A DNA stretch of 64,000 nucleotides from Anaerolineales bacterium (GTDB lineage: Bacteria > Chloroflexota > Anaerolineae > Anaerolineales > Villigracilaceae). Of the stretch, positions 8,471 through 55,076 are shown piece after piece (position 1 is the first letter of the stretch; every line of letters begins with the position of its first letter). Position numbers and translations under genes: made by a program. The stretch is from contig JADZCC010000004.1 in assembly GCA_020851785.1 (NCBI GenBank), forward strand, positions 1 to 64,000, read 5' to 3'. The notes beneath the pieces are model-generated. The model had not been told where the DNA came from, did not search any database, and worked only from the letters and a program-made list of their open reading frames with translations.

Positions 8471-8485
8471 TTTGGAGGATTTTTT
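8454..8485 (+). terminator. intrinsic terminator of the thiamine operon
   Basis: Arms AAATCCTCCAAA (8455-8466) and TTTGGAGGATTT (8471-8482) with loop ATAA, followed by a T-run. The stop codon of the DUF402 gene (TAA 8468-8470) is in the loop. The core AATCCTCC/GGAGGATT is the same as in the riboswitch terminator at 3524. Confidence 0.9.
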
Positions 8486-8500
8486 ATACCGCAGAATGAA

Positions 8501-8686: not shown

Positions 8687-8736
8687 GATTTCTTCTCCTT
8701 AAGAAAATGGATTGAATGAATACGAGTCGGATTATA

Positions 8737-37572: not shown

Positions 37573-37610
37573 ACCCTCCCCGCCCTGAAATTTATTGGGG
37601 CGGGGAGGGT
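37573..37610 (-). terminator. G/C-rich hairpin at the end of the signalling cluster
   Basis: ACCCTCCCCGCCC (37573-37585) pairs with GGGCGGGGAGGGT (37598-37610). It lies 25 bp beyond the last gene of the minus-strand cluster. The minus-strand tail TATTATCTT is a weak T-run, so termination there is likely but not certain. Confidence 0.6.
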
Positions 37611-37634
37611 TGAGAAAACCGGAGCAGGCTAAGG

Positions 37635-38021
37635 TTAGGGTTTGTGCGGCGCCTGGATGAAGGCTTCCACGCGGGCCCACAGTTCGCGGATGTTAATCGG
37701 CTTGGACATGTAGACGTCGCATCCGGCGGCGAGCGCTTTTTCTGCGTCGCCTTTGAGGGCGTTGGCAGTGATGGCGATGATCGGGGTGTAGGCGAGGGTG
37801 GGCTTGGCGCTTCCGCGCAGGCGGCGGGCCACTTCGTAGCCGTCAATGTCGGGCAGGTTGATGTCGAGCAGGATCAGGTCCACTTCTTTTTTTTCAGCCA
37901 TGGCTACGCCGTCCAACCCGCTGAGGGCTTCGAGCAACGTATAGCCGCGCGATTCGAGCGCGCGTTTGACCAACATCATATTATCTGGATTATCTTCGAT
38001 ATAAAGAATGACGCTTCCCAT
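37635..38021 (-). CDS. single-domain response regulator
   Basis: The receiver has 128 residues from the ATG at 38021 (AAGGAG upstream), with acidic pocket E9/D10, phospho-acceptor D53 (LLDINLPD), T85 and K107 (MSKPI). It has no output domain. It is the last gene of the 17-kb signalling cluster and starts 16 bp after the threonine-synthase-receiver fusion, so it may be a phosphate sink or relay for the same kinases. Confidence 0.92.
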   Translation of the reverse strand: MGSVILYIEDNPDNMMLVKRALESRGYTLLEALSGLDGVAMAEKKEVDLILLDINLPDIDGYEVARRLRGSAKPTLAYTPIIAITANALKGDAEKALAAGCDVYMSKPINIRELWARVEAFIQAPHKP

Positions 38022-38037
38022 AATTTGATTCTCCTTC

Positions 38038-39681
38038 TTATCCGTTTTTATCTTTATCTTCAATCACTTGAATCACCTGATCGACGAATTTGCGCGTGGG
38101 GAGCGATCCCTTTTGATAAACCGCTTCAATGTGTCCGCTCAGTCTTTGGCGCTCTTCGGCGGTGATGTCTTTGGCGCTGACTACGACGACCGGAATGTCT
38201 TTGGTGCGCGGGTCTAGCTTTAATTCTTCCACCAGCCCAAAGCCGTCTATCCCGGGCATGGTCAGGTCGCTCACGATCAGGTCTGGCAGTTTTTGGCGGG
38301 CCATGCTGAGGCCTTCCCAGCCGTCTTTGGCGTGATAAACCCGATATTTTTTGCGTCCTTCCAACAAGCGTTGGATGAGGAGCGCGTCGTCGCTGTTGTC
38401 GTCCACCAGCAGAACGGTTGTGGTGGTTTCGTCCAGGTTTTCCAGGGCGGCGAGCAGACCTTCGCGTGGGGCTGGCGTTTGGTCTTTGCTGAGATGTACA
38501 TCCACGGCCCATTGGTCGCCGAGGACGTGTTTTTCCACCGGGAAGGTGTGACCGGTACAGTTGATGACGACCAGTTCGTCCTCTTTGAGGGTTCCGGCTT
38601 TGCGGAGTTTTTCGTACCCGGCAAAGGCGACGGCTGTTGCCGGTTCGACAGCCATGCCTTCGCTTTTAGCCAAAGAGCGCATGGCGGCGAAGGCTTCCGC
38701 GTCGCTGACGGCCTCCATTGTACCGCCATAGTCCTGAGTTAGATTCCATAAATAAGTATAGGCTTCTCCCGGACTGCCAGTGGAGAGGATGATAATGCGC
38801 GTATCAGGGATGACCGGCGTGGCGATGTTGTGGCCTGCTTTGAAGGCGTTGACCATCGGCGCGCAACCGGAAGATTGAATGATGGCAAGCTTTGGAATTT
38901 TGGAAATTAAGCCCATGGCGTGGAGTTCTTTGAAACCCTGATAAACGCCCAGCGGGCCCAGCCCGCCGCTGACAGCCTGAATGTACCAATCGGGCGCTTT
39001 CCAGCCGAGTTGTTCGACGATTTCATAAGCGATGGTTTTCATCGACTCGCGCGCGGGGATGGAGTTTGCGCCGCGATCCAAGAGCAGGTTTTTGCGTTGG
39101 GCAAATTGCGCGGCGATCTGTTTGGTTTGGTCGTAGTTGCCGCTGACGCGAATCACTTCCGCGCCGAACAAGGCGGCTTCGCGCAGTTTTTCCTGCGGCA
39201 CGAGGCTGGTCATAAAGACCCAGAGTTTGATGCCGGCGCGGGCGCAGGCGGCGGCGTAGGCCACGGCCGCGTTGCCGGTGGAAGCGATCACGGCTTCGCG
39301 GATGCCGTTCTCGTTCATGGCGGCGACTGCAACAGCCGCCTGCCGGTCTTTGAAAGAGGCGGTTGGGCTGTAGCGTTCATCTTTGAAGTAGGTTTGCACA
39401 TGCCCGAGGTTGGGGGCGAAGCGTTGCGAGAGCCAAAGCGGCGTTCCGCCTGCGGGGTATAAATCCAAAGCGGCGGGATTGTCGAGCGGCAAGACATCCT
39501 GATAACGCCAAAGGTTGTTGGGGCGGTTGGGTAAACCGCGCAGGATTTCACGTTTGAACGCTTCGTAATCGTAACGCGCTTCCAGCCATTGAGATTGGCA
39601 CTGCGGGCAAACGGCAGGCGTAAAGGGTTGGTAGGACTGCTGGCTTTTGCAGGCCGCGCATTCCAAGATGGGCTTGGCCAT
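38038..39681 (-). CDS. threonine-synthase-like PLP enzyme fused to a receiver domain
   Basis: This is a 547-residue protein. Residues 1-400: a zinc-ribbon start (C8, C11, C25, C28), the ThrC-type phosphate region AGGTPLW, PLP Lys111 in PTASFKDRQA, STGNAAVA (134-141), SGGLGPLGVYQGF, STGSPGEA and EPATAVAFAGY. Residues ~421-547: a complete receiver with D427/D428, phospho-acceptor D472 (SDLTMPGIDGFG), S502 and K524. Threonine synthase makes threonine from O-phosphohomoserine; a fused receiver suggests control by phosphorylation. It lies 2 bp behind a giant kinase gene. I know no characterised protein with this order. A frame error is excluded within the ORF because both halves are in one open frame. 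Confidence 0.9.
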   Translation of the reverse strand: MAKPILECAACKSQQSYQPFTPAVCPQCQSQWLEARYDYEAFKREILRGLPNRPNNLWRYQDVLPLDNPAALDLYPAGGTPLWLSQRFAPNLGHVQTYFKDERYSPTASFKDRQAAVAVAAMNENGIREAVIASTGNAAVAYAAACARAGIKLWVFMTSLVPQEKLREAALFGAEVIRVSGNYDQTKQIAAQFAQRKNLLLDRGANSIPARESMKTIAYEIVEQLGWKAPDWYIQAVSGGLGPLGVYQGFKELHAMGLISKIPKLAIIQSSGCAPMVNAFKAGHNIATPVIPDTRIIILSTGSPGEAYTYLWNLTQDYGGTMEAVSDAEAFAAMRSLAKSEGMAVEPATAVAFAGYEKLRKAGTLKEDELVVINCTGHTFPVEKHVLGDQWAVDVHLSKDQTPAPREGLLAALENLDETTTTVLLVDDNSDDALLIQRLLEGRKKYRVYHAKDGWEGLSMARQKLPDLIVSDLTMPGIDGFGLVEELKLDPRTKDIPVVVVSAKDITAEERQRLSGHIEAVYQKGSLPTRKFVDQVIQVIEDKDKNG

Positions 39682-39683
39682 GT

Positions 39684-42600
39684 TTACTTGGTTTTCTCCA
39701 GCGGTCCGGAGGCGGTGGCTTCGGAAACGATCGCTTCAATGGGTAGCAAAATGTTGAAGGTTGTGCCTTGACCGGTTTCGCCTGCGCTTTCGGCCCAGAG
39801 TTTTCCGCCGTGCATTTCGATCAGGCGACGGCTGATGGGCAGGCCCAGTCCGGTGCCTCCGGCTTTGCGCGTGGTGCTGGTGTCCACCTGGGTGAACTCG
39901 CTAAAGACCGATTCAAGATGCTCCACTGGAATGCCCAGTCCGGTATCTTTGATGGCCACCAAAACGTCGTTGGCTTGATGCGTGATGCGGACGCTGACGC
40001 TCCCTTTTTCAGTGAACTTGATGCCGTTGTTGATGACGTTGATCAGCACCTGGCGCAGGCGGGTATGGTCTGCGCGGATGAAGACGTTTTTGTCGGACTT
40101 GGGTTCGATGAAAATGGCTAGGGCCTTTTCGTTCGCCAGGGATGAGGTGAGGCTGAGCACGTCTTCAACCGTCTCGTTTAAGTTGAACTTTTCAATCACC
40201 AGGTTCATCTTGCCGGATTCGATTTTGGCCATATCCAGTACGTCGTTAATCAGGTGGAGGAGGTGCTTTCCGTTTTTCTGAATGAGTTTGAGGTCGTTGT
40301 CCATGTTGGGCGTGAGCGGGCCGTCCAGTTCTTCGAGCATGACGTCGGTGAAGCCGAGGATCGAGTTGAGCGGGGTGCGTAACTCGTGCGACATGTTTGC
40401 GAGGAAGGACGATTTGAGACGATCGAGTTCGCGCAATTGGGTGACTGTGGAGGCCTGTTCTTGATACAACCGCGCGTTTTGGAACGCAATCGCGACTTGG
40501 GCGGCAAGGGTGGTGAAGATGTCGGCGTCTTCCTGCGTGAAACGATTCTCAATTTCAGATTGTACGTCGAACACGCCGATGACGTTGCCCGCCACAATCA
40601 TGGGGATGGCCATTTCTGCATGAGTTTCCGGCAGTTTGGGGTTGGGTAAAAAGCCTTCTTCTTTGCGAACGTTGTTGACGATGACGGCGGCGCGTCTGCG
40701 CGCCGCGCGCGCTACCAGCGATTTCTCCGCATCGGCGGAAATGGAATGTCCGGCGGCGGCCATTTCTTTCCCGACTACGCCTGCGCCGGTGGAAAGCGTT
40801 AAGGCGTTTTGAGCTTCATCGGTCAGGTAAATGTGCGCGTGATATAAGTCAAACTTTTCTTTGGTAATGTCCACCACCGTTTGGAGGAGTTCGGCCGGGT
40901 CGAGCAGGGTGGAGGTGGTGGTACTGACGGTGGCCACTGTCGAAAGGTCAGTGGCGCGGCGTTGAAGCGATTCTTCAATGCCTTTCAGCGTGGTGACGTT
41001 GACGGCGCCGATCAGCAGACAATCGTCTGGGCCGTAGCGAATGGGGAAGACGTTCAAGAGCGTCCAAATGAGATGCCCGTCGGAATGCTTGGTGCGGAGT
41101 TCGTATTCAGTGAGCGAGCCTTTCGCCTGTAATTCCTTGAAGAGGCTGGCGCGTTCGCTGGGGTCGTAATAGAAATCCGGCGTGCGTTTCCCGATTAGGT
41201 CATGTGAGTTCAGCCCGTAGAGTTCAGTAAAGGCGGCGTTGTTATACATGAGAACGCCGTCGGAAGCGCGGCTAATTACAATGGAGATTGGCAGAGCCGC
41301 TAAAATATTTTGCAGTCTTCTTTCGTTTTCCTGAATTTGAGCTTCCGCTTCTTTACGCTCGGTGATGTCCGTGTGCGAACCAGCCATACGATAGGGAGCG
41401 CCTTCGGCGTTGCGCAGGGCCTTGCCTCTGGCGAGGATCCACACATAGTGACCGTCTTTATGGCGGGCGCGGAACTCAATGCTATATTCCTCAATCTTGC
41501 CTGTCAGGTAGTTGTTGATATGGGTTGAAACGCGTTCTTGATCGTCTGGATGCAGGAGCTTTTCAAAATCGGCAAAGCCGCCGTTTAATTCGTCTTCGCC
41601 GCAACCAACCATCGCTTTCCAGCGCGGCGAAAAATAAACTTCGTTGGTGATCAAGTTCCAGTCCCACACGCCGTCGTTGGAACCGCCCACGGCTAATTCG
41701 TACTGTTCCTGACTTTTTTGCACTTCTGCGTGGCTGAGTTCGGCTTGCTCCAGCAGGCGCAGGTTTTCAATGTGCGCGCTCAGTTGCGCGGTGATGGCGG
41801 AGATGACCGCGGCGTTTTCCTCTTCGCCAACTTCCACTTCCAGCTCGCCGATTTTTTGGTTATGGACATAGACAGGATGCGCGTTCAATGAATCTGTCAG
41901 AGAGTTCAGTTGTTCTTTGAGCGGCTCAACCTTGTTTTGATCGTAGAGGAAGCCGGTGGCGACGCTTTTCCTCAAGTTGAGATATTCGCTCCACGATTCG
42001 CGCGTGAGGCGTTTGGAAATTTGTTCGGCGTCCACGCGGTATTTTTCAGATTGCGCAAGCAGGCGGAGCCCTTCAATTTGTTGGGCGACCTGCAGGGCAG
42101 TGGAGTTGATCACTTCCGCGTCGGCGGTGGACCATTTTCGATTGCGCGTGTCCGTTAGCTGAATTTCGCCCACGCGCGCGCCAGCCACCTGAATCGGAAC
42201 TACCAAAGCCTCGGCTGGTTGGCTGGCGGGTTGCTCCAGCTCCACCCAGGGCAAAATTTCCTCCTGTTTGAAGATATAACCAATGGCTTCGCTTCGGTCA
42301 ATTGCGTTTAAGAAATCTTCCCAACTGGAGAGTGAGAGTCGTTTGGCTTGTTCCGTGACTTCGGCGCGGGCTTGTTGGGCCTGTTCAAAGAGCGCCGCGT
42401 TTTGAATGGCAACCGCCAATTGCCCGGCGAGCGCTTCAAAGGCGGGCAGGTTGCTTTCGTTCAAACTGTTGGCGGATTCGCTTTGCAGATCCAGCACGCC
42501 GATTACCTGATCGCTGATCGTCAGCGGCACAGCCATTTCGGATTGCGTTTTGGGCAGGAGCGGATTGGGCAAAAAGGCGGCGTTGGTGGAGGTATCTGCC

Positions 42601-43769
42601 ACGATCACGGTTTCCCGGTTTAGCGCCGCGCGCCCGTTCAGCGAATCGCTGTTGATTAATAATTGATGCCCGCGTTGTAAAAGTTGCTTTCCAGCTTCGC
42701 CGGTTCCGGCGCGTAATGTGATGGCGCGATTGGCGCGGTCTGCCAGATAAATTTGAGCGTAATAGAGGTTGAAGCGTGAACGAATTTGTTCCACCGCTTC
42801 GGAGAGCAGAGCAGGCAGGTTATCCACTTTTGCAGTAACGGTTCGGCCGACTTCGGAAGCCAATTCCAGATCGCGCGTGCGTTCATGAACGCGCTGTTCC
42901 AACTGGGTACGGCTGGCAACCAATTCTTCGTTGGCAATTTGCAATTCTATGTTGGCTTCTTTGACTTCTTCGAGGCTTTGGCGCTCGTTGCGCTTGCGGA
43001 AGTTGGTTAATAGAATCAAGATCAGCCCAATCCCGTTAATCAGCCCGGCTTGTACGCCAAACCCATCAGGCGCGGCGGGCAGGTAGGTTTTCACCGTGAA
43101 GACATAGGCGAAGATATTGTAGAGCACTAACGCAAATACGGCCCAGGAAGAAAGGAAGGCGCTGGCGACGATGAAGGCGATTGGCACGTAGATGAATAAT
43201 AATGTGGCGGTGTTTGCGGCAGTCCCATCTCGGGCAATTGTCAGATAAGCCAGCGAACTATAAAAGAGGGCAAAAATGAAGATGGAGGCGCGATACCATT
43301 TTGTACGCGAAAGTAGGTAGCTGGTCGCGGTGGCGATAATGGGCAGGCTGAATGTGCGGTAGGCATTGGCAAAGCCCTGGCTGGATGCGCTTGCAGTGAA
43401 GCCAGATAACTCAAGGAGGAGGATGATGAATAGAAATGAGGCGGCCAGGCGGGCGGAATTTCTTTGTTGCGAATCTTGAATGCTGGGGTGCGCGTCCACT
43501 ATGCGATTCCAGAACTTGATCAGCCAGAATCCTTTGATCGGAGTCGCTTGGGCAGGCCTGGGCGTGATGGGAATTGTGGGGCTTAGGGTTCTTTTGTTTA
43601 ACGCTTCCTGCTCCGCCGTTGCGGCGCGCTGTTTCTGAAGGTTAAGCGCATCTTCAAGTTCTTGAATGCGCCTTTGCATGGCCGCCATCTCGGTCAGGCT
43701 GGCAGGCGCGGGGACTTGCGCCTCATTGAAGATATTATTAATCTTGTCCGGTAAATTTTTGTCAGTCAT
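39684..43769 (-). CDS. giant membrane histidine kinase (GAF/PAS-rich)
   Basis: This is a 1361-residue protein. Order seen: N-terminal coiled coil (about 25-60), six to seven membrane spans (about 100-265), coiled linker, GAF (about 300-465), and two shorter GAF-like units beginning SSWEDFLNAI and ESWSEYLNLR. Then PAS (about 705-830, GSNDGVWDWNL), PAS (about 840-955), GAF (about 965-1115), HisKA with phospho-His near 1128 (NMSHELRTPLNS), and HATPase with DTGLGIP and GTGLGLPIS. There is no receiver in the chain. It follows the second kinase-less sensor by 6 bp and precedes the threonine-synthase-receiver fusion by 2 bp, so its phosphate may go to that receiver (inference). Confidence 0.93.
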   Translation of the reverse strand: MTDKNLPDKINNIFNEAQVPAPASLTEMAAMQRRIQELEDALNLQKQRAATAEQEALNKRTLSPTIPITPRPAQATPIKGFWLIKFWNRIVDAHPSIQDSQQRNSARLAASFLFIILLLELSGFTASASSQGFANAYRTFSLPIIATATSYLLSRTKWYRASIFIFALFYSSLAYLTIARDGTAANTATLLFIYVPIAFIVASAFLSSWAVFALVLYNIFAYVFTVKTYLPAAPDGFGVQAGLINGIGLILILLTNFRKRNERQSLEEVKEANIELQIANEELVASRTQLEQRVHERTRDLELASEVGRTVTAKVDNLPALLSEAVEQIRSRFNLYYAQIYLADRANRAITLRAGTGEAGKQLLQRGHQLLINSDSLNGRAALNRETVIVADTSTNAAFLPNPLLPKTQSEMAVPLTISDQVIGVLDLQSESANSLNESNLPAFEALAGQLAVAIQNAALFEQAQQARAEVTEQAKRLSLSSWEDFLNAIDRSEAIGYIFKQEEILPWVELEQPASQPAEALVVPIQVAGARVGEIQLTDTRNRKWSTADAEVINSTALQVAQQIEGLRLLAQSEKYRVDAEQISKRLTRESWSEYLNLRKSVATGFLYDQNKVEPLKEQLNSLTDSLNAHPVYVHNQKIGELEVEVGEEENAAVISAITAQLSAHIENLRLLEQAELSHAEVQKSQEQYELAVGGSNDGVWDWNLITNEVYFSPRWKAMVGCGEDELNGGFADFEKLLHPDDQERVSTHINNYLTGKIEEYSIEFRARHKDGHYVWILARGKALRNAEGAPYRMAGSHTDITERKEAEAQIQENERRLQNILAALPISIVISRASDGVLMYNNAAFTELYGLNSHDLIGKRTPDFYYDPSERASLFKELQAKGSLTEYELRTKHSDGHLIWTLLNVFPIRYGPDDCLLIGAVNVTTLKGIEESLQRRATDLSTVATVSTTTSTLLDPAELLQTVVDITKEKFDLYHAHIYLTDEAQNALTLSTGAGVVGKEMAAAGHSISADAEKSLVARAARRRAAVIVNNVRKEEGFLPNPKLPETHAEMAIPMIVAGNVIGVFDVQSEIENRFTQEDADIFTTLAAQVAIAFQNARLYQEQASTVTQLRELDRLKSSFLANMSHELRTPLNSILGFTDVMLEELDGPLTPNMDNDLKLIQKNGKHLLHLINDVLDMAKIESGKMNLVIEKFNLNETVEDVLSLTSSLANEKALAIFIEPKSDKNVFIRADHTRLRQVLINVINNGIKFTEKGSVSVRITHQANDVLVAIKDTGLGIPVEHLESVFSEFTQVDTSTTRKAGGTGLGLPISRRLIEMHGGKLWAESAGETGQGTTFNILLPIEAIVSEATASGPLEKTK

Positions 43770-43775
43770 GTGAAT

Positions 43776-45623
43776 CTACTCTTCCTGCCCGTTGGATTGG
43801 GTTAAGCGAATTGCGGCGCGCGTGCCCAACGCGCGTCCAATTTCCCGCACAGCCACTTGTAAAGCGCCTTCCACGTTGTTTTCGCTGATGATTTTCTGAT
43901 TAATTGAAGCGATGAGTTGTTCGCGGTTGGCTTGCTGTTGGATGCCCGCCAGCGTGCGCGCATTTTGAAGCGCGATGGCGATTTGGTTGGAGATGGCTTG
44001 AAGCAGGTCGGCGTCGGCGGCGCTGAGGCCGTTGGTGACGTTTTGTTGCACGTCCAACACGCCCAGCACACGATCTTCAATTGAAATCGGAATCGCCACC
44101 TCCGATTTTGTTTCAGGGAGCAGGGGGTTGGGGAGCCAGTCTGGGTTATTGGTTGTATCCGCCACCAGCACTGGCGCGTTGGTTTCCGCCGCGCGCCCCA
44201 CCAGGCCTTTGCCAAACGCAATTTTATGTTTATTGGCCAGCATGGTTTTTCCAGCTTCGCCGGTGCCGCCCGCCATGAGCAGTTCGTCGCCGGTTTGATT
44301 TAATAAGTAAATGTGGGCGTGATAATAATTGAAGGAGGTTTTTACTTGCTCCACAACTTCCTTCACCAAGTCTGCTTCCACCAACAGGGAGGAGAGTCGG
44401 CGGCTGACTTCGGTGGAGGTGGCCAGCGCTTTCGTACGGTCTGAAATGCGCTGTTCCAATGAACCGATTAATTCGCGCAGACGGCTGGTCATGGTGTTGA
44501 AGGATTCTGCCAGGACGCCAATTTCATCTTTACGACTGGCGTCCGCTTGTAAGGTCAGGTCGCCATGCGAAACTTTGTCCGCAATTTCTGCGAGGTCGGC
44601 GATGGGAGTGGTGATGCCTCTGGCAACGATGTAGGCGATGAAGAGGGCGAGCAAAATGGTCACAATGGCAATCCCAATCACGGTTAGGGTGATGCGGTTC
44701 GTCGCCGCCAACGCCGCCGATTGATTATGCTCCGCGATGAGCGCCACTTGCAATTCTGGAATCCAGCGATACGCGCCAAAGACGGGGTTTCCGGCGTAAT
44801 CCACATAGGTTGCGGAACCTGCAGATTTTTCCTGAATGGCTTTGGTAATGCCTTCCGTGCGGATGTAGGTTTCGCCGGGGATGAGTTCGATATACGCCAA
44901 CTGAGTTAGCACTGCGTTGTTGGCGGTCACGAGGTAAGTTTCGCCTTCTTCGCCCAACCCGGTGGCTTGAGCCATGATGCCGCTGAGGGTATCGAGGTTG
45001 ACGCGCCCGGCCAGTACGCCGATGGTCCGGCCGCTGGCGTTTTTAAGCGGCTCTGAAAGAATGATGGAATAGCGTGCGCGCGAAACTTCATAAGAAGGCG
45101 GTGAGGTGTATTCGCCAAGCAGGCCTTCTTGAAAATAAGCCTGGGTGATTTGAATTTTTCCTTCCTGATTTGAATCGGTAGAAAGGACAACCTTGCCTTC
45201 GGGACTGATTAGAAAGATTTCAACAAAGTAATTCCCGTTTTTGTTAAAGGCAATTAATTCGTTGCGTAGTTCGTCTGGGCTGACGGTCGCTTCGGGATTG
45301 TTTTGCAGGAGTTCGTTGAGGCCTTGCCGAACGAGTTTATCGTTCCCGGCGAGCCGCAAATTTACACGAACGGTCTCCAGCCATTCCCGAATGGCCTCTT
45401 CCTTCAGCGTGGCGATGGATTGAAGCCCCTGGATGATTTCATTTTTTAGCCCGTTTGTGCCAATCGTGGCTGAGACTGAACTGTTGATGAGCATGGGGAC
45501 GAGCGCCAGCGCAATAAAGGCCAAAAGCAGGCGATTTCTCAACGACATATTCCGGAAGAATTTGAAGTTGAAGAAAGGCAGACCTTTCTTTGAGGGATTT
45601 TGTAAAACTGGGTTTTGGCTCAT
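43776..45623 (-). CDS. Cache-HAMP-GAF sensor protein without kinase domain (copy B)
   Basis: The protein has 615 residues from the ATG at 45623 (GGAGG, 5-nt spacing; an upstream ATG at 45677 overlaps the neighbour). First span at about 30-50; a ~260-residue extracytoplasmic double-Cache domain with ISPEGKVVLSTDSNQ and LVTANNAVLTQ; second span at about 315-340; HAMP (ITTPIADLAEIADKV); coiled coil; GAF (about 430-565, SEVAIPISIEDRVLGVLDVQ). It ends with a helical stub and has no HisKA or ATPase. It may pass its signal by contact to the kinase encoded 6 bp downstream. It is a clear paralogue of 46719-48464. Confidence 0.92.
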   Translation of the reverse strand: MSQNPVLQNPSKKGLPFFNFKFFRNMSLRNRLLLAFIALALVPMLINSSVSATIGTNGLKNEIIQGLQSIATLKEEAIREWLETVRVNLRLAGNDKLVRQGLNELLQNNPEATVSPDELRNELIAFNKNGNYFVEIFLISPEGKVVLSTDSNQEGKIQITQAYFQEGLLGEYTSPPSYEVSRARYSIILSEPLKNASGRTIGVLAGRVNLDTLSGIMAQATGLGEEGETYLVTANNAVLTQLAYIELIPGETYIRTEGITKAIQEKSAGSATYVDYAGNPVFGAYRWIPELQVALIAEHNQSAALAATNRITLTVIGIAIVTILLALFIAYIVARGITTPIADLAEIADKVSHGDLTLQADASRKDEIGVLAESFNTMTSRLRELIGSLEQRISDRTKALATSTEVSRRLSSLLVEADLVKEVVEQVKTSFNYYHAHIYLLNQTGDELLMAGGTGEAGKTMLANKHKIAFGKGLVGRAAETNAPVLVADTTNNPDWLPNPLLPETKSEVAIPISIEDRVLGVLDVQQNVTNGLSAADADLLQAISNQIAIALQNARTLAGIQQQANREQLIASINQKIISENNVEGALQVAVREIGRALGTRAAIRLTQSNGQEE

Positions 45624-45660
45624 GGAGACCTCCGCGATTGCGCTGGCTAATCGTTCGAAT

Positions 45661-46659: not shown

Positions 46660-46718
46660 AAAAAATCTCCTTGTTTTGTCTATGAAGTTAATCGTTAGTA
46701 GGCGGATTCACAAACCGC

Positions 46719-48464
46719 CTAGCGCGAGCCACTCTTTTCTTTGAGTTCGTTCACGTTGAGCATGATCCGCGCTTCCTGCACGCCCAGCGCCTGGCTTAAT
46801 TCGCGGAGCGCCGTTTGAAGCGCGCCTTCGACAGACCGGGTGTTTTGAATCTTTTGACCAATTAGAGAAATGAGCGCCTCCTGCTTGGCCTGCACTTGAA
46901 TTTCTGTATAAGAAGAGGCGTTCTTCAGCGCGATGGCCACCTGATTGGCAATGGACTGAATTAACGCCGAGCTTTCTGCAGAAATGCCATCCACCTGATT
47001 GTGTTGCACGTCCAGCACGCCTAGGACTTCGTTCCCCAGCGAGATTGGCACAGCCACTTCGGATTTGGTCTCTGGCAGTAGGGGATTGGGAAGCCAGTTC
47101 GAGTCGGCTTCTGTATCCTCTACTAATACCGGCGCATTGAGGCTGGCGGCACGCCCGACCAACCCACGGCCTTTCAAAACTTTGTGCTTGCGTTCCAACA
47201 TAATTTGCCCGGCTTCGCCGGTGCCGCCCGCCATAACCAAATCTCCCGCTTCATCCACCAGGTAAATGTGCGCATGGTAATAGTTGAAAGCCGTCTGTAC
47301 TTGTTCCACCACTTCCTTTACCAGTTGTTCCTGATTTAAGATCGTGGAAAGGCGGCGGCTAACCTCGGTGGAAGCGTTTAGCGCCTTGGTACGATCCGCC
47401 ACGCGTTGTTCCAGCGAACCTACCAAATCGCGCAGTTGAGCCGCCATATGATTGAACGACTCGGCTAACGCGCCAATTTCATCTTCACTTTGAACGTTTG
47501 TAGTTTGGTTTAAATTCCCCGCGCTGATTAATTGCGCCGAAGTCGCCAGTTCCTGAATTGGCGCGGTGATCTGACGCGAGGCGCGTAAGCCGAGAAAGCC
47601 TGCCCCGAGCATGGAGAGCAGGATGACGACGACAGTAAGCAATACGGCGCTATACGCGGACGCCAAGGCGATGGAGGTGGGTTGTTCGGCAAGGATATAA
47701 AAAGTTTGATCTTCAAACTTAAGTTGTTTTACCGCCAGAGCGACGGAAGAACCGTCCAGCCCGGTGGTGAACGAATTTTTTGCAGGCGGGGTAATTTGCT
47801 CCCGTTGTAAGACCACCGAAGGGTTGGCGTGGGCCACTACATACCCGTTGCTATCCGTCATATAAACTTCGTCGCTTTCAGACACGCTCTCCTGCCCCAT
47901 CAGGTCCCAGACAGATTTGAAACGGAATTTGGCAATGATGACGTTAGCCAATTGTCCGCTTTTTAAATTAAAGGAAGGGATTGAAATGATCATATACGGC
48001 TCACTGGTGGTTTCGTTAAAGATCACCGGGCCAAAATAGGGTTCGCCGGTTGCTTTGGGCTTTTCAAACTCATCCGCTCCGGTACGGTTGCTAAATTCCT
48101 GGGAAGTCACCACATCCAGCCGCGAAAGGTAGAGCAATTCTTTTCCACGCCCGTTGGTCAGGATGATTTCTTCGTAAACCGTCTGTTTGGCAAACAGAGT
48201 AGACAATAGCGTTGATTGTTGTTCAAATGTGGCGTTGGAGAAATTGTAAACGTCAATCAGCGCCTGCAAATCGTTCTTGCGCCCGTCAATGAAGTTTTGG
48301 ACTCGTTCAGCCGCCAGTTCGGCCTTTTCCGCTTGAATTTCAAGTGCGTATGCCCGTTCCTGAGTGTAGGTTAGCCAGTTTGCCACCACCCCAACCAGTA
48401 ATAACGGGAGCGATACCAGGGCGATAAAATACACGGTCAAACGGGTTCGTAAACTCTTTTTCAT
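46719..48464 (-). CDS. Cache-HAMP-GAF sensor protein without kinase domain (copy A)
   Basis: The protein has 581 residues from the ATG at 48464 (GGAG, 6-nt spacing). Span at about 7-28, extracytoplasmic Cache domain with YMTDSNGYVVAHANP, second span at about 270-295, HAMP (ITAPIQELATSAQLI), coiled coil, GAF with SEVAVPISLGNEVLGVLDVQ, and a helical end. HAMP-to-GAF is strikingly like copy B (both have LPNPLLPETKSEVA), while the outer domains differ. No kinase core. It probably acts as an adaptor that feeds a second signal into the shared kinase. Confidence 0.92.
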   Translation of the reverse strand: MKKSLRTRLTVYFIALVSLPLLLVGVVANWLTYTQERAYALEIQAEKAELAAERVQNFIDGRKNDLQALIDVYNFSNATFEQQSTLLSTLFAKQTVYEEIILTNGRGKELLYLSRLDVVTSQEFSNRTGADEFEKPKATGEPYFGPVIFNETTSEPYMIISIPSFNLKSGQLANVIIAKFRFKSVWDLMGQESVSESDEVYMTDSNGYVVAHANPSVVLQREQITPPAKNSFTTGLDGSSVALAVKQLKFEDQTFYILAEQPTSIALASAYSAVLLTVVVILLSMLGAGFLGLRASRQITAPIQELATSAQLISAGNLNQTTNVQSEDEIGALAESFNHMAAQLRDLVGSLEQRVADRTKALNASTEVSRRLSTILNQEQLVKEVVEQVQTAFNYYHAHIYLVDEAGDLVMAGGTGEAGQIMLERKHKVLKGRGLVGRAASLNAPVLVEDTEADSNWLPNPLLPETKSEVAVPISLGNEVLGVLDVQHNQVDGISAESSALIQSIANQVAIALKNASSYTEIQVQAKQEALISLIGQKIQNTRSVEGALQTALRELSQALGVQEARIMLNVNELKEKSGSR

Positions 48465-48492
48465 TTCAATCTCCATCCTTTTTGGCGCATGG

Positions 48493-50034
48493 CTATTGCT
48501 GAGCCGCGACAAATTTATCTTCTATAACTTGGCGAATCTGCCCTGCAGAATTTCGTAAACGCTCCAACACTGTGGCTTGTTGCGGGTTGAGTGGCCCTGC
48601 CTGGGCGAGTAACGCGCCGCATTCTTCAATCTCCAGCAGTGGTTTTTGTAGGTCGTGCGCAATGGCGGCCAGCAGTTCGCTTTTAACTTTTTTAGACTGG
48701 TTTTCTTCGTCGCCCACGCTTTGATACAAGCGGATGTTTTCAATCGCAATCGCGGCCTGGCTGGCAATCGCCTGCAGTAATAAAAGCTGTTCCAGCGTGA
48801 AGTAGTTTTCCTGTTCGTGAATTAAGACCAGCAAACCCAGCATGGCGTGGCGCCCAAACAGCGGAGCCACCATCGCCGAACGCCCCGCTTCATTTTGCCG
48901 TTTCACCCAATATGGGTCGTTCAGCATGTTTTTGATGATGACGCCCTGGCGCGTATCTTGAATGCGCCCGATTAGATTTTTGGCAAATTCAATCGGCTCA
49001 GGCGAGATTTCGGATTTGTTCAGCGGGGCTTTAAACTGCTCAATGATTTCAGCTTGCGGGTTGGTTAGAAACATCACGCCGTCAATCGCCCCCATGGTTT
49101 CGCACGTGCGCTTCAAGACGGTCTCCGCAATCGGTGAAATTTCGGTGCGCCCGCTAAGTTCCTTGCCAATTTCCGGCAAAATGCTCAATTCGCGGTTGCG
49201 GCGGCGAATCGCGTCTTCCGCTTCTTTCACCCGTAATTTTGTGCGAATGCGGGCCATTAACTCGTGACGGTCAAAAGGCTTGGTCACGTAATCGTCCGCG
49301 CCTAAATTAAAGCCAGACTGCATGTCCGCCGGGTCCAACCGTGCGGCGGTGAGGATGATGACCGGAATGTGTTCGGTAAAGGGGTTGGCGCGAATTTCCT
49401 CCAACACCACAAACCCGTCTTTGTGCGGCATGTTGATATCCAGTAGCACCAGGTCTGGTTGTCGGTCCTGAATCACTTTCAGCGCTTCAACCCCATCTGC
49501 GGCGGTTAAAACGTTGTAGCCTTCAAACTCCAAATACCGGCCCAGTAAAGTGATGTTATCGGGCTGGTCGTCCGCCACCAGCACGTTGAATTTTTTATGC
49601 GGTCGCAAATTCAACTTGGGCGGGCGGGTGGTGTGCTTCATTTCTTCAATCGCTTGCGTGGCAATTTCGCAAATGCGTTCCGGGCGCACCGGCTTGATGA
49701 TCACTTCGTTGACCTTCAAACGATGCGCGGTTACTTTGAGGCCGGGCACATCGTAGGCGGTAATTAAATATGAAAATGAAGGCCGCCCCGCCGGGTGACT
49801 TTGTAGTTTCTCAATTAACTCCAGCCCGGTCATTTCTGGCATGATCATGTCGGTAATCAAAATGTCCACCCCGTTGTCTTTCACTTTGGCCAGCGCGTCC
49901 CCACCGTTGGAGGCGGAGGTGACTTGCACGCCCGGCCCCAACTGGCTTAATGCGCGAGCCAGCATGGCGGCGGTATTGGGGTGATCGTCCACCACCAAAA
50001 TGCGAACAGGGTGAGTGTTGGAGGGCGTTGTCAT
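48493..50034 (-). CDS. REC-REC-GAF protein ending in a histidine phosphotransfer-like helix pair
   Basis: This 513-residue protein has receiver 1 with D62 (ITDMIMPEMTG) and K114, and receiver 2 with D199 (LLDINMPHKDG) and K252 (VTKPFD). A coiled linker, GAF (about 285-435) and a DHp-like unit follow, with H460 in AAIAHDLQKPLLEIEECG. The chain then stops: no ATPase domain exists here or in other frames before the next gene. The protein can therefore take phosphate on Asp and perhaps on His460 but cannot make it. It could be a relay hub between the two giant kinases and the other receivers. Confidence 0.9.
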   Translation of the reverse strand: MTTPSNTHPVRILVVDDHPNTAAMLARALSQLGPGVQVTSASNGGDALAKVKDNGVDILITDMIMPEMTGLELIEKLQSHPAGRPSFSYLITAYDVPGLKVTAHRLKVNEVIIKPVRPERICEIATQAIEEMKHTTRPPKLNLRPHKKFNVLVADDQPDNITLLGRYLEFEGYNVLTAADGVEALKVIQDRQPDLVLLDINMPHKDGFVVLEEIRANPFTEHIPVIILTAARLDPADMQSGFNLGADDYVTKPFDRHELMARIRTKLRVKEAEDAIRRRNRELSILPEIGKELSGRTEISPIAETVLKRTCETMGAIDGVMFLTNPQAEIIEQFKAPLNKSEISPEPIEFAKNLIGRIQDTRQGVIIKNMLNDPYWVKRQNEAGRSAMVAPLFGRHAMLGLLVLIHEQENYFTLEQLLLLQAIASQAAIAIENIRLYQSVGDEENQSKKVKSELLAAIAHDLQKPLLEIEECGALLAQAGPLNPQQATVLERLRNSAGQIRQVIEDKFVAAQQ

Positions 50035-50129
50035 GCCCCCATTTTAGGGGCTTTCGCTGGATTCAAACGATAGCGATGGGCGTGGAATAGTTGGCATTCG
50101 TTGGGGGAGAAAACTGCCCCTTGAAAGCG

Positions 50130-50162
50130 AAACCCGCCTCGGGCTAAGCCGGAAGCGGGTTT
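50130..50162 (-). repeat. inverted repeat behind the DNA-binding response regulator
   Basis: AAACCCGC (50130-50137) pairs with GCGGGTTT (50155-50162) in the 156-bp gap between response-regulator genes. The downstream T content is low, so it is at most a partial terminator. Confidence 0.5.
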
Positions 50163-50190
50163 AATCCAATTTACATTTAACCACGTTGAG

Positions 50191-50985
50191 TTAATCGGCC
50201 ACGAGCTTGTAGCCCGTCCCGCGGACGTTAATCAGCAGGCCGGTTTTTTGCGCCCCTTTTTCCAAAGCCTGACGGATTTGATGAATGTGCCATTTGCTGA
50301 GTTCTTGCGCCTCGCGGAGTTCGGCCGCATAGCCCTGGGCTTCAGCCACCAGCGTTTGAAAGTCCACCACGTTGGGGGAGTGGCGCATGAGCACGAGCAG
50401 GTAGTCAAACGAGGTCGGCGGCAGGGCGAGCAGTTCTTCATCCACTGCCACGCGATGCGCGTGTAAGTCGAGGACGATGGGGCCGCGTTTAAGATAGCGC
50501 TCGGTTTCAATGACCGGAGAAGGCGCTTCGTTCGTTTCCAGTTGGCTTTCGAGGGTTTTTAATTCGGCCTGTAGCGCCACAATTTGCAGGGCAATTTCAC
50601 GTTTGCGATTTTCCCGCTTTTGCGCTTTGAGGATGGTTTTGGTGCGCTCGATGATGGCTTCCGGCATAAGCGGTTTGAGCAGGTAATCAGTGGCGCCGTG
50701 GCGCAGAGCCTCCACAGCGGAGTTTACGTCGGGTTGGGCGGTGAATAACACTACGGGAATGTTGGGGTGATGGGCATGGATGAATTTGAGGGCTTCCAAC
50801 CCGGCGATGCCAGGCATACGCAAGTCGGTAAAGATCAGGTCGAAGACGCTGGTTTTCAGGAAGGCAATGCCCTGCTCGGCGTTTTCGGCGGTGGTCACGT
50901 CGAACCCGGCTTGTTGCAGGATGCGGGCCAGCGTTTTGCGAAGCGTGGCTTCATCGTCAATAATCAGGATATGGCTGTTTTTCAT
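50191..50985 (-). CDS. response regulator with winged-helix DNA-binding domain
   Basis: This 264-residue protein has a receiver (acidic D10/D11, phospho-acceptor D54 in FTDLRMPG, T82, K104 in LLKPL), a coiled linker (about 118-150), and a C-terminal OmpR-type winged helix (about 165-264: LPPTSFDYLLVLMRHSP, then LLINVRGTGYKLVAD). It is the only DNA-binding output in the cluster. Its ATG overlaps the stop of the upstream giant kinase (ATGA, 50982-50985), so the two are translationally coupled and probably cognate. Confidence 0.93.
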   Translation of the reverse strand: MKNSHILIIDDEATLRKTLARILQQAGFDVTTAENAEQGIAFLKTSVFDLIFTDLRMPGIAGLEALKFIHAHHPNIPVVLFTAQPDVNSAVEALRHGATDYLLKPLMPEAIIERTKTILKAQKRENRKREIALQIVALQAELKTLESQLETNEAPSPVIETERYLKRGPIVLDLHAHRVAVDEELLALPPTSFDYLLVLMRHSPNVVDFQTLVAEAQGYAAELREAQELSKWHIHQIRQALEKGAQKTGLLINVRGTGYKLVAD

Positions 50986-53900
50986 TCGATCTCGATAAAG
51001 GTTTTTGGAAGCCAGACTTTAAACATGGCTCCTCGTTCTGATAGATTTTTGGCCTCGATTCGCCCGCGATGCTTATGAATAATATCATGGGTGATCGTCA
51101 GCCCCAGCCCGGTGCCAGTCTCTTTGTTGGTGATGAAGGCTTCAAAAATATGCGCCAGAATTTCCGGCGCGATGCCGGGGCCGGTATCTGAAATGGTGAT
51201 GAGAATCTCCGCTTCGCCTGCGCAGTGATCGGTGCAAATGGTCAGCGTCCCGCCGCTCGCAGACATCGACTCACCCGCGTTGACGATCAGGTTGAGCAGA
51301 GCCTGACGAATTTGATCTTGAATCGCCGGGATGGTGGGTAGTTCCGGGTCGGGATTAAAGACGAACGCAACCTGATTATGCCGGAGCATGGTTCCGATGA
51401 GCGCGTAAAGTTCCTGAATGGTTGCATTAATCTGCACTTCTTTGAATTCTTCCACGCGCATCGGGCGGTAGGTGGCGCGCAGTTGGGCGATTAAACTAGC
51501 CATCCGCTCTGATTCGGCCAGCACGGTCTCTAAATCCAACTTGCCTTGTGCGGAAAGCCCGCTTTCAGACTTGAGCAGGAAGAGCGCGTTTTGAATGGCT
51601 TGCAGGGGGTTGTTCAGCTCATGCGAGACGGAAGCCAGTAAACGTCCCATCACGGCCAGACGTTCGCTTTGAATTAACTGGGAGCGAACCGCTTGTTCTT
51701 GCTGGAGGGAAATTTGTAAATTGCCGTACAAGGTTGCGCGTTGTAAAGCCACCGCCAGTTGATTGGCCACGGTGATCATTAATTGAAAATCGCTTTCAGT
51801 AAAACGCTGGTGTGGCCGGTTTTGAACGTCCAGCACGCCGACGACTTCCCGATCCACCTTGATGGGGACGGCAATTTCCGATTGCGTTTCCGGGAGCAGG
51901 GGATTCCGCTTAAAGAAGACGACGCCCTCCACGTTGTTGGTAAAGAAGGCTTCGCCGGTTTCGGCGACATGCCCGGGAATGCCTTCCCCGGCCGGTATTT
52001 GATATTGCGCATTCCAGGCTTTATTGCCAAGATAGCCGCTGTTGTGCTGGAGGAGCAATTCGCGGCTTTCCGGGTCCACCAGATAAATTTGAACGTGATA
52101 ATATCCGAAATTTTGCTGGAGTAACGTAATGACTTCCCGAATTAATTCGCCGGGATCCAGCGAAGCGGCCAACCCCTGGTTGATTTTGTATAACGCTTGA
52201 ACTTCTTTTAAACTTTGCTGGGTGGCTTCAAAAAGTTTTGTGTTTTCGATGGAGATGGCGGCTTGCACGCCCAGCCCGTTGAGCAAATTAATTTCTTCCG
52301 CTGAAAAGGCATTCGTCTGATCGCTGTGTAGGCTGATCGTCCCAATCAGGTTTTTGCCGCTTTGAATAGGCACCACCAACAGGGATCTGAAAGTGGGAGC
52401 GGCGTCTCCGGTGACAAAGTTTGGGGAAGCGCTAATGTCTTTGATGTTAATGGCCCGGCCTTCTTGAATGGCCTGTCCGGCTACGCCTTCGCCAAGTTTC
52501 ATCTTTAGCGTGGCTTTTTCCCGATCTTGTCGGTGATAGCCGGAAACGGCGCGCGCGATTAACACTTGCTCGTCCACGTCCAACAGGTGGATGACGCTTT
52601 TTTGCGCCTGTTGGATGAGTTCCAGCGCCGAATCGGCAATTAACTGCAGTACGTCGCTCACGCCGGAGAGTTCTGTGGCTCCCAACGCGCGCCCAATTTT
52701 GGTGAGAACCTGACTTTCCTTAAGGCGTCGTTGAATCTCCAGTTCTTGCTTAAAGTTCCAAAGCGCCAGCGCAACCTGCGCCCCGGCTTGTTCGGCGCGT
52801 TCAATTTCCATTGGAGTAAATGGATGCGCCGTATTAAAGGCGATGATGATTGCGCCCAGTTTTTGTTCGCCGACGATTAAAGGGGCGCTCAACATGGAGC
52901 GCGTCGGATACTGCGCAATAAATTCTGAATTAATGTAAGGGGAGTTCAAAACGTCTTCAATCGCCAGCGCCCGCCCGGTTTTTAAAACTGAGGCGGTCAG
53001 GTTTATATCGTTTGGGTCAATCGCGTGTGTTGGAATTTTGATCTGAACGGTGCTGGCGGTAAAGACGGCTTGTTGTCTTTTTTCGTCCCACTGGGTGACG
53101 TAGCAATCGTCGGCGTTGGTCAACTTGGCGATGTCGTAAGCGAGGCGGGATAAGGTTTCTTCAAAATCATCGGCCAGCAGGATCGTCTGCGTCATGTCGT
53201 TGAGGAGTTTGAGAAATTTTTCGCGGGCCAGCAGGCTTTCTTCCGCTTGTTTGCGCGCGGTAATGTCCAGCATAAAGCCCTGACGATATAACGCCGTCCC
53301 TTGCTTATCCCGAACCTCGGCGACTTCGTCTAATATCCAGCGTACCTCTCCGCCTTTGGTGATCAGCCGATATTCCTCTTTGAAAGGTTCGCGGTTTTTG
53401 ATAATTTGAGCGATGCGCTCTAAAACCCGATCTTTATCGTCGGGGTACAGCCGTTCCAGCCAGAGTTGGGGAGCGTTCAACCATTCCTCTGGCGTAAATC
53501 CCAGGGTTTTGATCTGTGGGCTGATGTAGGTTGCGCCAATATGCTGACCCACGCCTGCCGTATAAATAATCGGTGGGATTTGTTCCACCAGCGTGCGATA
53601 TTTTTCTTCCGCCGCGCGGAGCGTTTCTTCAACCAGTTTTCGCTGGGTAATATCTTCCATCGAGATGATTACTTTGGAATAATCCGCTTCGTGCCCAGGC
53701 ATGACGGTCCAATTGATGTTGACGTAAATTTCCTCGTTGGTCAGCGTGGGATACTTCATCTCAAATTTAAAAGCCTGAATCCCATGCGCGATATTGATTA
53801 ACTCTTTGCGGAAGTATTTCAATGACTTTGGGTTGGTCGCTTCGTATAAATTAGAAAGTAAAGCCTCCTTGCTGGGAGCTTGTTCCAGTTTGATCGCGGC

Positions 53901-55076
53901 ACGATTGACATTTAAAACCTTCACTAATTTGGCGTAGGTCACCAATTCTTTCGGGTGTTCGGAAAAATAGGCTTCAAAATCGCTCGTCCCGTTTTCGCGT
54001 AAAAAGTCAAGTTGACGTTTGACCTGCGAGAAATCCTCCTCCCAGATTGCAATCGGCGAATCCTCAAATAGCGCCCGATATTGCCTTTCAACGCTCCGTA
54101 CGCTTTCTTCAACTTGTTTGCGTTCTTCAATTTCTTCAAAGAAATCGCTGATGGCGCGCCCAATGATTAACATCACGCCGGATAGGAAAAGGATGTTGAA
54201 GTTAACGTCAATGTAGGTCTTGAAATTGTCGCTACTCAATGACTTTGACGTGAGGATCGGGATGAACATGGCGGTCAGCCCAACCCAGCCCGCTCCCACG
54301 GCGGCCACCGAAATGCCGTAACGCACGGAGAGAAAAATTAGAAAAAAAGCGTATCCGATGCGTAAATCTTCCAGTTGAAAGACCGCCATCACCAGCGGGG
54401 CGATCGCCAGCGTGGCCGTGATGAATAAATCATTAACGCGGGAGTTGCGCCCTTCCGGCAGAAAGGGATGGACCGGAATTTCTGCCGGAACGTTGGTTAG
54501 CTTTTTTGTGGCAAGGAATTTTGAAACCAAAATCAGGAGCGGCGCCGTGATGACGAAATGTGTGGTCAAGTCGGCAGAGCCAATCACGCGTAGCGCAAGC
54601 CAAAATGATTCTGTATCCAGGTGTCCGCTGAGATAGGGTTGGAGGGCTAAAGCAACGTCGGCTAATAGCGTGGGGAACAGGGAGCCAAGCAGGAGAAATT
54701 TTCCCAGGTTTAATAAATCTGGCAGATAAACTTTCCCTTTTCCCAAACGCACAAAGAAAAGCCAGCTTAACCCAATTTCGAGGATTTCGGGCAACCCGTA
54801 AAAAGGCGCCTGCTCCCACGGAACCCCCCATAAGGGCATGCAAACTAAAGTGTTGAGGTAAATCCCTACTAAAACGCGCGGCCCCCACCAGTAGATCAGC
54901 GCGATTCCCAGGGCGGTGGGGAAGTACCAAATTGAAATTCCAAAATCGGTTTTGAAAAATAGGGAAAGCCAAGTGCCCAAGTTGGCGATGAAAAAAGGCA
55001 GGATCCAAGTCCACCAAGGCAGGGGCGGTGTGATTGTCTTTAGGTTACGTTGGGCTTCAGTCGGGTTGGCATCCAA
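50982..55076 (-). CDS. giant MASE1-PAS-GAF histidine kinase
   Basis: This is a 1364-residue protein. A MASE1-like membrane sensor comes first (about 20-325, eight or more spans, ISIWYFPTALGIALIYWWGP). Then PAS (about 335-490), PAS (about 495-625, ITARKQAEESL at its end), three GAF domains (about 640-780, 790-945, 960-1120), HisKA of the SHELNNPLQ type with His1152, and HATPase with DTGPGI and GTGLGLTI. It is the first gene of the cluster, behind an extended -10 promoter, and feeds the overlapping winged-helix regulator. Confidence 0.93.
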   Translation of the reverse strand: MDANPTEAQRNLKTITPPLPWWTWILPFFIANLGTWLSLFFKTDFGISIWYFPTALGIALIYWWGPRVLVGIYLNTLVCMPLWGVPWEQAPFYGLPEILEIGLSWLFFVRLGKGKVYLPDLLNLGKFLLLGSLFPTLLADVALALQPYLSGHLDTESFWLALRVIGSADLTTHFVITAPLLILVSKFLATKKLTNVPAEIPVHPFLPEGRNSRVNDLFITATLAIAPLVMAVFQLEDLRIGYAFFLIFLSVRYGISVAAVGAGWVGLTAMFIPILTSKSLSSDNFKTYIDVNFNILFLSGVMLIIGRAISDFFEEIEERKQVEESVRSVERQYRALFEDSPIAIWEEDFSQVKRQLDFLRENGTSDFEAYFSEHPKELVTYAKLVKVLNVNRAAIKLEQAPSKEALLSNLYEATNPKSLKYFRKELINIAHGIQAFKFEMKYPTLTNEEIYVNINWTVMPGHEADYSKVIISMEDITQRKLVEETLRAAEEKYRTLVEQIPPIIYTAGVGQHIGATYISPQIKTLGFTPEEWLNAPQLWLERLYPDDKDRVLERIAQIIKNREPFKEEYRLITKGGEVRWILDEVAEVRDKQGTALYRQGFMLDITARKQAEESLLAREKFLKLLNDMTQTILLADDFEETLSRLAYDIAKLTNADDCYVTQWDEKRQQAVFTASTVQIKIPTHAIDPNDINLTASVLKTGRALAIEDVLNSPYINSEFIAQYPTRSMLSAPLIVGEQKLGAIIIAFNTAHPFTPMEIERAEQAGAQVALALWNFKQELEIQRRLKESQVLTKIGRALGATELSGVSDVLQLIADSALELIQQAQKSVIHLLDVDEQVLIARAVSGYHRQDREKATLKMKLGEGVAGQAIQEGRAINIKDISASPNFVTGDAAPTFRSLLVVPIQSGKNLIGTISLHSDQTNAFSAEEINLLNGLGVQAAISIENTKLFEATQQSLKEVQALYKINQGLAASLDPGELIREVITLLQQNFGYYHVQIYLVDPESRELLLQHNSGYLGNKAWNAQYQIPAGEGIPGHVAETGEAFFTNNVEGVVFFKRNPLLPETQSEIAVPIKVDREVVGVLDVQNRPHQRFTESDFQLMITVANQLAVALQRATLYGNLQISLQQEQAVRSQLIQSERLAVMGRLLASVSHELNNPLQAIQNALFLLKSESGLSAQGKLDLETVLAESERMASLIAQLRATYRPMRVEEFKEVQINATIQELYALIGTMLRHNQVAFVFNPDPELPTIPAIQDQIRQALLNLIVNAGESMSASGGTLTICTDHCAGEAEILITISDTGPGIAPEILAHIFEAFITNKETGTGLGLTITHDIIHKHRGRIEAKNLSERGAMFKVWLPKTFIEIE

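Follow-up and report, generated by a model that had tools for sequence, protein, structure and literature searches.

Tailed kinase-less receptors beside a threonine-synthase-like receiver protein in Anaerolineales: a candidate receptor array with a metabolic output

Nine neighbouring genes of an Anaerolineales bacterium encode kinases, sensors, receivers, a binding protein and an enzyme of metabolic type, and the question raised by this locus is whether they work as one signalling system and, if so, how a signal would travel through it and what it would control. The window, by which we mean the whole stretch of 64,000 nucleotides that was analysed (contig JADZCC010000004.1, positions 1 to 64,000), carries the nine open reading frames on the minus strand at 37635..55076, as seen in its ORF list and Pfam matches. 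The genes, numbered g1 to g9, and the elements around them are the following.

50982..55076, minus strand: g1, membrane PAS/GAF histidine kinase of 1364 aa (Pfam HisKA, HATPase_c, three GAF stretches, PAS)
50191..50985, minus strand: g2, OmpR-type DNA-binding response regulator (REC and Trans_reg_C; 4-bp overlap with g1)
50130..50162, minus strand: hairpin 3' of g2, predicted terminator (11-bp stem at its core)
50090..50104, minus strand: direct repeat CCAAC-N5-CCAAC with a 10-bp period, predicted g2 operator
50039..50048, minus strand: putative -10-like element directly before g3 (found by eye)
48493..50034, minus strand: g3, REC-REC-GAF-DHp protein, ATPase domain missing here (Pfam; H460 kept)
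46719..48512, minus strand: g4, dCache-HAMP-GAF kinase-less sensor (Pfam)
46758..46892, minus strand: C-terminal tail of g4 (E 1.1e-16 against tail alignment A1, which includes it as a row)
45661..46659, minus strand: g5, NMT1/THI5-type solute-binding lipoprotein (PF09084, E 1.2e-49, 169.6 bits)
43776..45677, minus strand: g6, dCache-HAMP-GAF kinase-less sensor (Pfam; model mean pLDDT 82.3)
43812..43937, minus strand: C-terminal tail of g6 (E 5.2e-16 against alignment A1, which includes it as a row)
39684..43769, minus strand: g7, GAF-PAS-PAS-GAF histidine kinase of 1361 aa (Pfam)
38038..39681, minus strand: g8, TS-REC, a threonine-synthase-like PLP enzyme with zinc-ribbon-like Cys4 and a C-terminal receiver (PALP and REC)
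37635..38063 (start probably 38021), minus strand: g9, single-domain receiver (REC)
37573..37611, minus strand: hairpin 3' of g9, possible terminator (75-nt stretch, -32.8 kcal/mol, z -5.06)

At the level of single genes, the preliminary description of this DNA proved accurate. The two giant kinases (g1, 1364 aa; g7, 1361 aa), the two sensors without kinase domains (g4 and g6), the solute-binding lipoprotein (g5, with a start that by eye is lipobox-like, LAAC) and the four receiver proteins (g2, g3, g8 and g9, among which g8 is the PLP enzyme) are all present. By sequence, both kinases are complete histidine kinases with HisKA, HATPase and a G box, g1 having H1152 and N1266, and g7 H1128 and N1247. 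The tight spacing claimed for the genes holds at six of the eight junctions, which overlap or are shorter than 30 bp, and fails at g5/g4 (59 bp) and g3/g2 (156 bp); several overlaps depend on TTG starts. The start of g9 is probably at 38021, because most relatives match this protein only from about residue 14. Upstream of the cluster lie rny and recX, and ABC exporter genes lie downstream on the opposite strand; searches for RNA families gave no match between 30 and 60 kb in the window. The genome as a whole is rich in receivers (66 matches) and GAF-like stretches (55 matches to g6).

The neighbourhoods of relatives, annotated with profiles made from the domains present in the window, keep the nine-gene order on which the proposal of a single system had been staked. 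The recurring arrangement is recX-rny-HK1-RR-(REC-REC-GAF kinase)-binding proteins and sensors-HK2-TS-REC-REC. Because 16 of the 18 window-type stretches that could be judged have g1-g2-g3 ahead of the sensors (these genes are absent in L090 and L085; L099 was left out as too short), the nine-gene set is not a product of chance, and g2 and g3 are also seen at the further loci L040, L052 and L077. A TS-REC orthologue (68-92% identity) is found in 33 of 61 genomes, the window's own included, and these are divided into 29 of the 37 genomes of the genus (one of them a contig-edge fragment) and 4 of the 24 others.

The middle of the cluster is variable. The kinase-less sensors number 0 to 4, and the binding proteins are either of the NMT1 type (0 to 2) or members of other families (PF04392, Peripla_BP_6, Bmp), so that at least four Pfam families occur at the place of g5. 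Median identity is 83% for g8 and 82% for g9 (20/20 loci), 67% for g2, 64% for g5, 61% for g3 and 47-52% for the sensors and the g1 and g7 kinases (g1, 51% in 14 relative loci); for RNase Y it is 90% (8 loci). The core that stays fixed consists of TS-REC and the small receiver, and the exchangeable part of the system is made up of the binding proteins and sensors.

Nearly all of these sensors share their C-terminal end. After the last GAF (or PAS) domain comes a tail of about 45 residues of the type RAxRExxIxxIxxKI....ExxLQTAxRELGxxLG, followed by a short end, and Pfam gave no family above chance for three tail peptides (one chance-level match, E 0.16). We counted tails in 33 loci chosen among those fetched, namely 20 window-type loci from relatives and 13 sister-type loci, including that of the window's own genome; the window itself and ORFs cut by the ends of a stretch are left out of this count, and the 33 do not include G016 (L087), where the reading frames look broken. 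At a domain E < 1e-3, the tail stands at the C-terminus of 141 of 146 kinase-less sensors and in none of the 59 kinases of the same loci. Three of the five tail-less sensors are broken-looking ORFs (L092 twice, L101), the one in G031 has a divergent tail that is detected at E 3e-6 in a whole-genome search, and the one in G281 is without explanation. In addition, a GAF sensor at L073 has a Ser/Lys-rich end instead of the tail. In the AlphaFold model of g6 the tail is the end of a long helix (553-597) plus a short helix (602-617), with a block pLDDT of 80-85, and its position is roughly that of the DHp helices in a kinase.

The tail alignment A1 (32 rows) was built from these loci, and whole-genome searches test it elsewhere. 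All 14 strong matches in the window's genome are at TS-REC loci (2 here and 12 at the sister locus), and all 63 matches at E <= 1e-5 in six other genomes are on the contig of a TS-REC. Moreover, in the three genomes with TS-REC on a multi-megabase contig, the tail matches lie at most 27 kb from it. Of seven weaker matches (E 1e-4 to 0.008), some fall outside TS-REC loci, for example inside proteins of about 2470 aa. Among 251 Chloroflexota genomes, 23 have tail and TS-REC, 7 have TS-REC only, 5 have a single tail only and 216 have neither (Fisher p 8e-22, kinship uncorrected), and all 22 genomes of this sample with at least two tail matches have TS-REC. The exceptions are therefore 7 of 30 TS-REC genomes without tail matches and 5 of 28 tail genomes without TS-REC; in G240, tailed sensors are on a different contig from TS-REC, beside another dCache kinase. 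The nearest tail in another genome belongs to the same system in 142 of 148 cases, a grouping that orthology of the whole sensors could also cause.

The same genome contains a larger sister locus (G000:C37), of about 35 kb with its genes on one strand. It encodes 12 tailed sensors, two receivers, one NMT1 protein, one GAF kinase with two receivers, a ParA-like ATPase (PF13614), an EamA transporter and a TS-REC 49% identical to g8. A full-length second TS-REC (47-53% identity) occurs in 48 of 61 genomes, counted by identity and not by locus. All 13 sister-type loci examined have a single kinase, upstream on the same strand, for 2-13 sensors, and all 13 have an EamA gene near TS-REC. The system is larger than the preliminary description had it, which missed the tail, the sister locus and the division into a fixed core and exchangeable sensors.

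Which protein would the sensors act on? In relatives, dCache-HAMP-GAF is found fused to a kinase just before TS-REC (L103/L084, L052, L081), and family f43 has one 1877-aa dCache-HAMP-GAF-PAS-GAF kinase followed by TS-REC and REC (two genomes annotated). The TS-REC of f43 groups with the window clade, and the five f43 genomes that have TS-REC gave no tail match. Since these fusions occupy the same place, the sensors likely act on the kinase before TS-REC, in agreement with the step from Cache adaptor to kinase proposed earlier. Thus, g7 is the likely collector of the sensors. The likely partner of g2 is g1; g1, and g3 in relatives, could be alternative phosphodonors to g8. The earlier idea of g3 as a truncated REC-REC-GAF-DHp hub had to be given up: the HATPase domain is present, and the kinase complete, in 14 of the 16 relative stretches showing g2 and g3, and a purpose-built hub was rejected on this ground. 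The domain is missing from g3 here and in a minority of relatives; two further loci, L040 and L067, also lack it.

The tail could also bind a partner other than the kinase. It might dock on TS-REC, a receiver, the ParA-like ATPase or other tails, in which case the sensors would serve as a scaffold to sequester or position the enzyme, with the kinase acting separately. The link of tails to TS-REC is as strict as their link to any kinase. A ParA-like gene separates sensors from kinase in 11 of 13 sister-type loci, and a minority of window-type loci also have one (G022, and elsewhere in the locus L074 and L105; also L064). However, there is no ParA-like gene in the window or in 16 of 17 window-type stretches, G022 being the exception, and the sensor-kinase fusions point to the kinase. 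We consider docking on such another partner unlikely.

The candidate output is g8. Ordinary ThrC is treated in PMC7090099, and in the literature searched we found neither this cluster nor a receiver fused to a threonine synthase. The solved structures nearest to g8, whether compared by sequence or by fold, are threonine synthases, and it scores 252.7 bits against NCBIfam PRK08197 (cut-off 303) and, narrowly below the cut-off of 167.1, 164.2 bits against thrC. A role as the housekeeping threonine synthase was rejected on account of a clear thrC elsewhere in the genome (305 bits), where a second synthase (184 bits) is also encoded. TS-REC retains the PLP lysine K111 in its SFKDR context, the STGN loop and K116. 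In contrast, the GNAGN loop of thrC is replaced, and so are N154, S155 and R160 (T. thermophilus numbers), which we take to be the residues holding the substrate phosphate in threonine synthase: all five TS-RECs compared have R/G/A, M/G/S or K/G/G there, g8 itself having R/G/A in an alignment that is gapped nearby. The 305-bit thrC keeps N/S/R; because the second synthase, which is above the thrC cut-off, has N/T/T, these residues are not an absolute mark. On the receiver side, the acid pocket and phosphoacceptor are complete, with D427, D428, D472 and K524 invariant in all 21 aligned TS-REC sequences, as are K111 and the four Cys; g9 likewise has the phosphoacceptor Asp and Lys. For g8, AlphaFold gives a model of mediocre quality (pLDDT 71.7). 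Since the thrC-like residues are lost and the PLP lysine and receiver residues are kept, g8 is likely, judging from its sequence, to be a phosphorylation-gated PLP enzyme with a substrate other than that of threonine synthase.

The replaced residues would also fit a PLP domain that is an amino-acid or PLP sensor regulating its own receiver, and not a working enzyme, so that the output would be purely regulatory. The scores of TS-REC below the NCBIfam threonine synthase cut-offs go in the same direction as the losses at the presumed phosphate site. Against this, TS-REC retains the PLP lysine and STGN loop together with Cys4, and most invariant columns of the 21-sequence alignment fall in the enzyme part, which makes a mere sensor quite improbable next to a gated enzyme. 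Least probable of all is an ordinary two-component island in which sensors and TS-REC are uncoupled, neighbours are co-inherited and the tail is a folding cap for GAF: receivers (66) and GAF-like stretches (55 to g6) do abound in this genome and a few single tails exist without TS-REC, but the gene order and the link between tail and TS-REC persist though the sensors diverge to about 48% identity and change type, and the cap is missing from all 59 kinases examined.

How the genes are expressed could be read in part from the gap between g2 and g3. The preliminary description had proposed one transcript from a single good promoter, ending at a hairpin. The 3' hairpin at 37573-37611 is real, with 0 of 200 shuffles as good and no clear T run, but the promoter does not stand out (12 promoter-like sites versus 12.5 expected by shuffling), and a single nine-gene transcript was rejected on account of the hairpin and the conserved direct-repeat operator in the g2-g3 gap. 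This inner hairpin is the weaker one (z -2.07 over 81 nt, a fold matched by 9 of 200 shuffles), and a similar hairpin is seen by eye at the same place in several relatives. It is followed by CCAACTTTTSCCAAC-type direct repeats with a 10-bp period. The window copy, CCAACGAATGCCAAC at 50090-50104, is the sole match in the window, where 0.24 matches are expected and 22 of 100 shuffles contain one. A single exact CCAAC-N5-CCAAC stands in this position in 20 of 22 window-type stretches (17 of 19 after removal of three same-contig repeats), the misses being L098, where it is present with one change, and L153; it is absent from all 13 sister-type stretches. A stricter pattern, CCAACTTTTNCCAAC, has 25 occurrences in 61 genomes versus 2 for the reversed control, and 15 of the 25 are at most 17 kb from a TS-REC, with none in the window's genome. 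In G018 and G021 the gap contains extra DNA and the repeat is still beside g3; in L097 the extra gap DNA resembles a Y1 transposase weakly, with a score under the cut-off. Lengthening the pattern to operator plus promoter at a fixed spacing gave matches at only 4 of 157 loci, so the element downstream of the operator varies. From these sequence features we infer that g2 controls g3-g9 and that g1-g2 form their own unit.

Taken together, the orphan binding proteins, the adaptor-like Cache sensors and the threonine-synthase-REC output of the system first proposed are upheld, whereas its single transcript and its g3 hub are not. On balance, we think it probable that the tailed kinase-less receptors dock on g7, as predicted, and that g7 phosphorylates the receiver of g8, likely switching its enzyme activity. 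We infer every protein-to-protein step of this route. Loaded with its ligand, the lipoprotein g5 would bind one of the two sensors, g4 or g6, at its Cache domain; the solved chains nearest to g5 are 4nmy (a solute-binding protein) and 3ix1 (a pyrimidine-binding protein), and our guess for the ligand is a thiamin-type pyrimidine. The signal would then pass through the HAMP and GAF helices to the tail and alter the activity of g7 there. In turn, g7 would phosphorylate g8 and g9, the latter serving as phosphate sink or partner, and the substrate of g8 would not be O-phosphohomoserine. Meanwhile, g1 and g2 would be a separate two-component pair that sets the expression of g3-g9 through the direct repeat.

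Our best reading, by analogy, is a receptor array that would work like a chemosensory array, without CheW and with a PLP enzyme as output. Chemosensory arrays (MCP, CheW, CheA, CheY) similarly combine many receptors, exchangeable sensor parts and a common C-terminal end with few kinases, and share the single-domain receiver and, probably, a co-receptor role for binding proteins; that such proteins can act through receptors is described in PMC9602780. The ParA-like ATPase of 11/13 sister-type loci also recalls the arrays placed by ParA-like proteins (PpfA, ParC/ParP), ParC and ParP being described as array placers in PMC5706961. In structure, the two Foldseek matches that rank best for the g6 model are MCP models, with a large rmsd. 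The differences are equally clear: an MCP hairpin there and HAMP-GAF here, where the kinase is an ordinary HisKA kinase, and motor output there and a PLP enzyme here. Among their Pfam matches, g4 and g6 have no MCP signal domain, and the CheW domain (PF01584), which CheW and CheA have in common, was found in 0 of 6 genomes, with matches in 7 of 14 for the control.

Other known systems resemble single parts of the cluster. TorT-TorS and LuxP-LuxQ are binding-protein-coupled kinases. Like these and XylFII-LytS, the present cluster has an orphan solute-binding protein beside a periplasmic sensor domain; unlike them, its sensor has no kinase of its own, and the binding proteins of relatives belong to at least four Pfam families. 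ThrC of the PRK08197 type shares with TS-REC the fold, the PLP lysine and the zinc-ribbon-like N-terminus, but has no C-terminal receiver fusion and keeps the N154/S155/R160 residues and GNAGN loop that TS-REC has replaced. PleD and CheB are response regulators with enzyme outputs, and PleD is also among the matches of g8 against solved structures. As in these regulators, a receiver is fused to a catalytic domain; TS-REC differs in having its receiver at the C-terminus and a PLP fold-type II enzyme as output.

It is tempting to go further and to see here a third kind of sensory array, in which up to 13 kinase-less receptors with a common docking tail of about 45 residues would serve one histidine kinase, with no CheA or CheW and with ParA-like placement in the larger version. 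Its output would be neither motility nor transcription: a phosphorylation-gated PLP enzyme would make, and with the adjoining EamA protein export, an amino-acid-like compound. We offer this full picture as speculation, and as a whole it is rather doubtful.

If the array reading is true, a modular receptor array with a metabolic output would have evolved in a widespread group that is largely known from metagenomes and has no CheW in the genomes checked. It would come with a defined docking tail and a rule for exchanging sensor inputs on one kinase. Moreover, TS-REC would be an enzyme with its activity set by receiver phosphorylation, and there would be an explanation for many GAF orphans and for many Chloroflexota proteins annotated as 'threonine synthase'.

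The genome from which the window derives carries a sister array of kinase-less sensors that share a C-terminal end of ~45 residues (tailed sensors), and this array exceeds the nine-gene cluster of the window in size:

G000:C37:12944-48718 (loci L106, L107 and L108), all on one strand, tailed-sensor array, ~35 kb

It comprises 12 tailed kinase-less sensors, one hybrid kinase, a ParA-like ATPase and a threonine-synthase-like enzyme fused to a receiver (TS-REC), with an EamA transporter close by. Among the loci arranged like the window cluster (window-type loci), a few carry a ParA-like gene:

L089 raw 7930-8733, ParA-like gene
L074 4891-5871, ParA-like gene
L105 raw 6396-7178, ParA-like gene
L064 2664-3473, ParA-like gene

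In the more distant Chloroflexota genome G068, a FIST-domain protein lies amid tailed sensors (L141 3901-5037). The window itself encodes a further HAMP protein (16470-17111, +), weakly similar to the kinase-less sensor g6 (E 8e-6), which gave no match when the genome was searched with the tail alignment. A 23S rRNA-intervening-sequence-type protein (PF05635; window 34706-35116) sits within an ABC-2/HlyD exporter gene set.

Many relatives, including L084 (12052-13227) and several more window-type loci, encode after g9 a third threonine-synthase-like enzyme, which stands alone and has ~392 aa; in the window none follows g9. In L083 (3453-7862), a TS-REC with two receivers directly follows recX-rny, with no intervening sensors.

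The g2-g3 gap of L097 (raw 16769-17488) and of L095 contains extra DNA bearing REP-like palindromes, as read by eye, and the L097 insert includes an ORF with weak likeness to an IS200 transposase (score below cut-off). The predicted operator (CCAAC-N5-CCAAC) still adjoins g3 at both loci.
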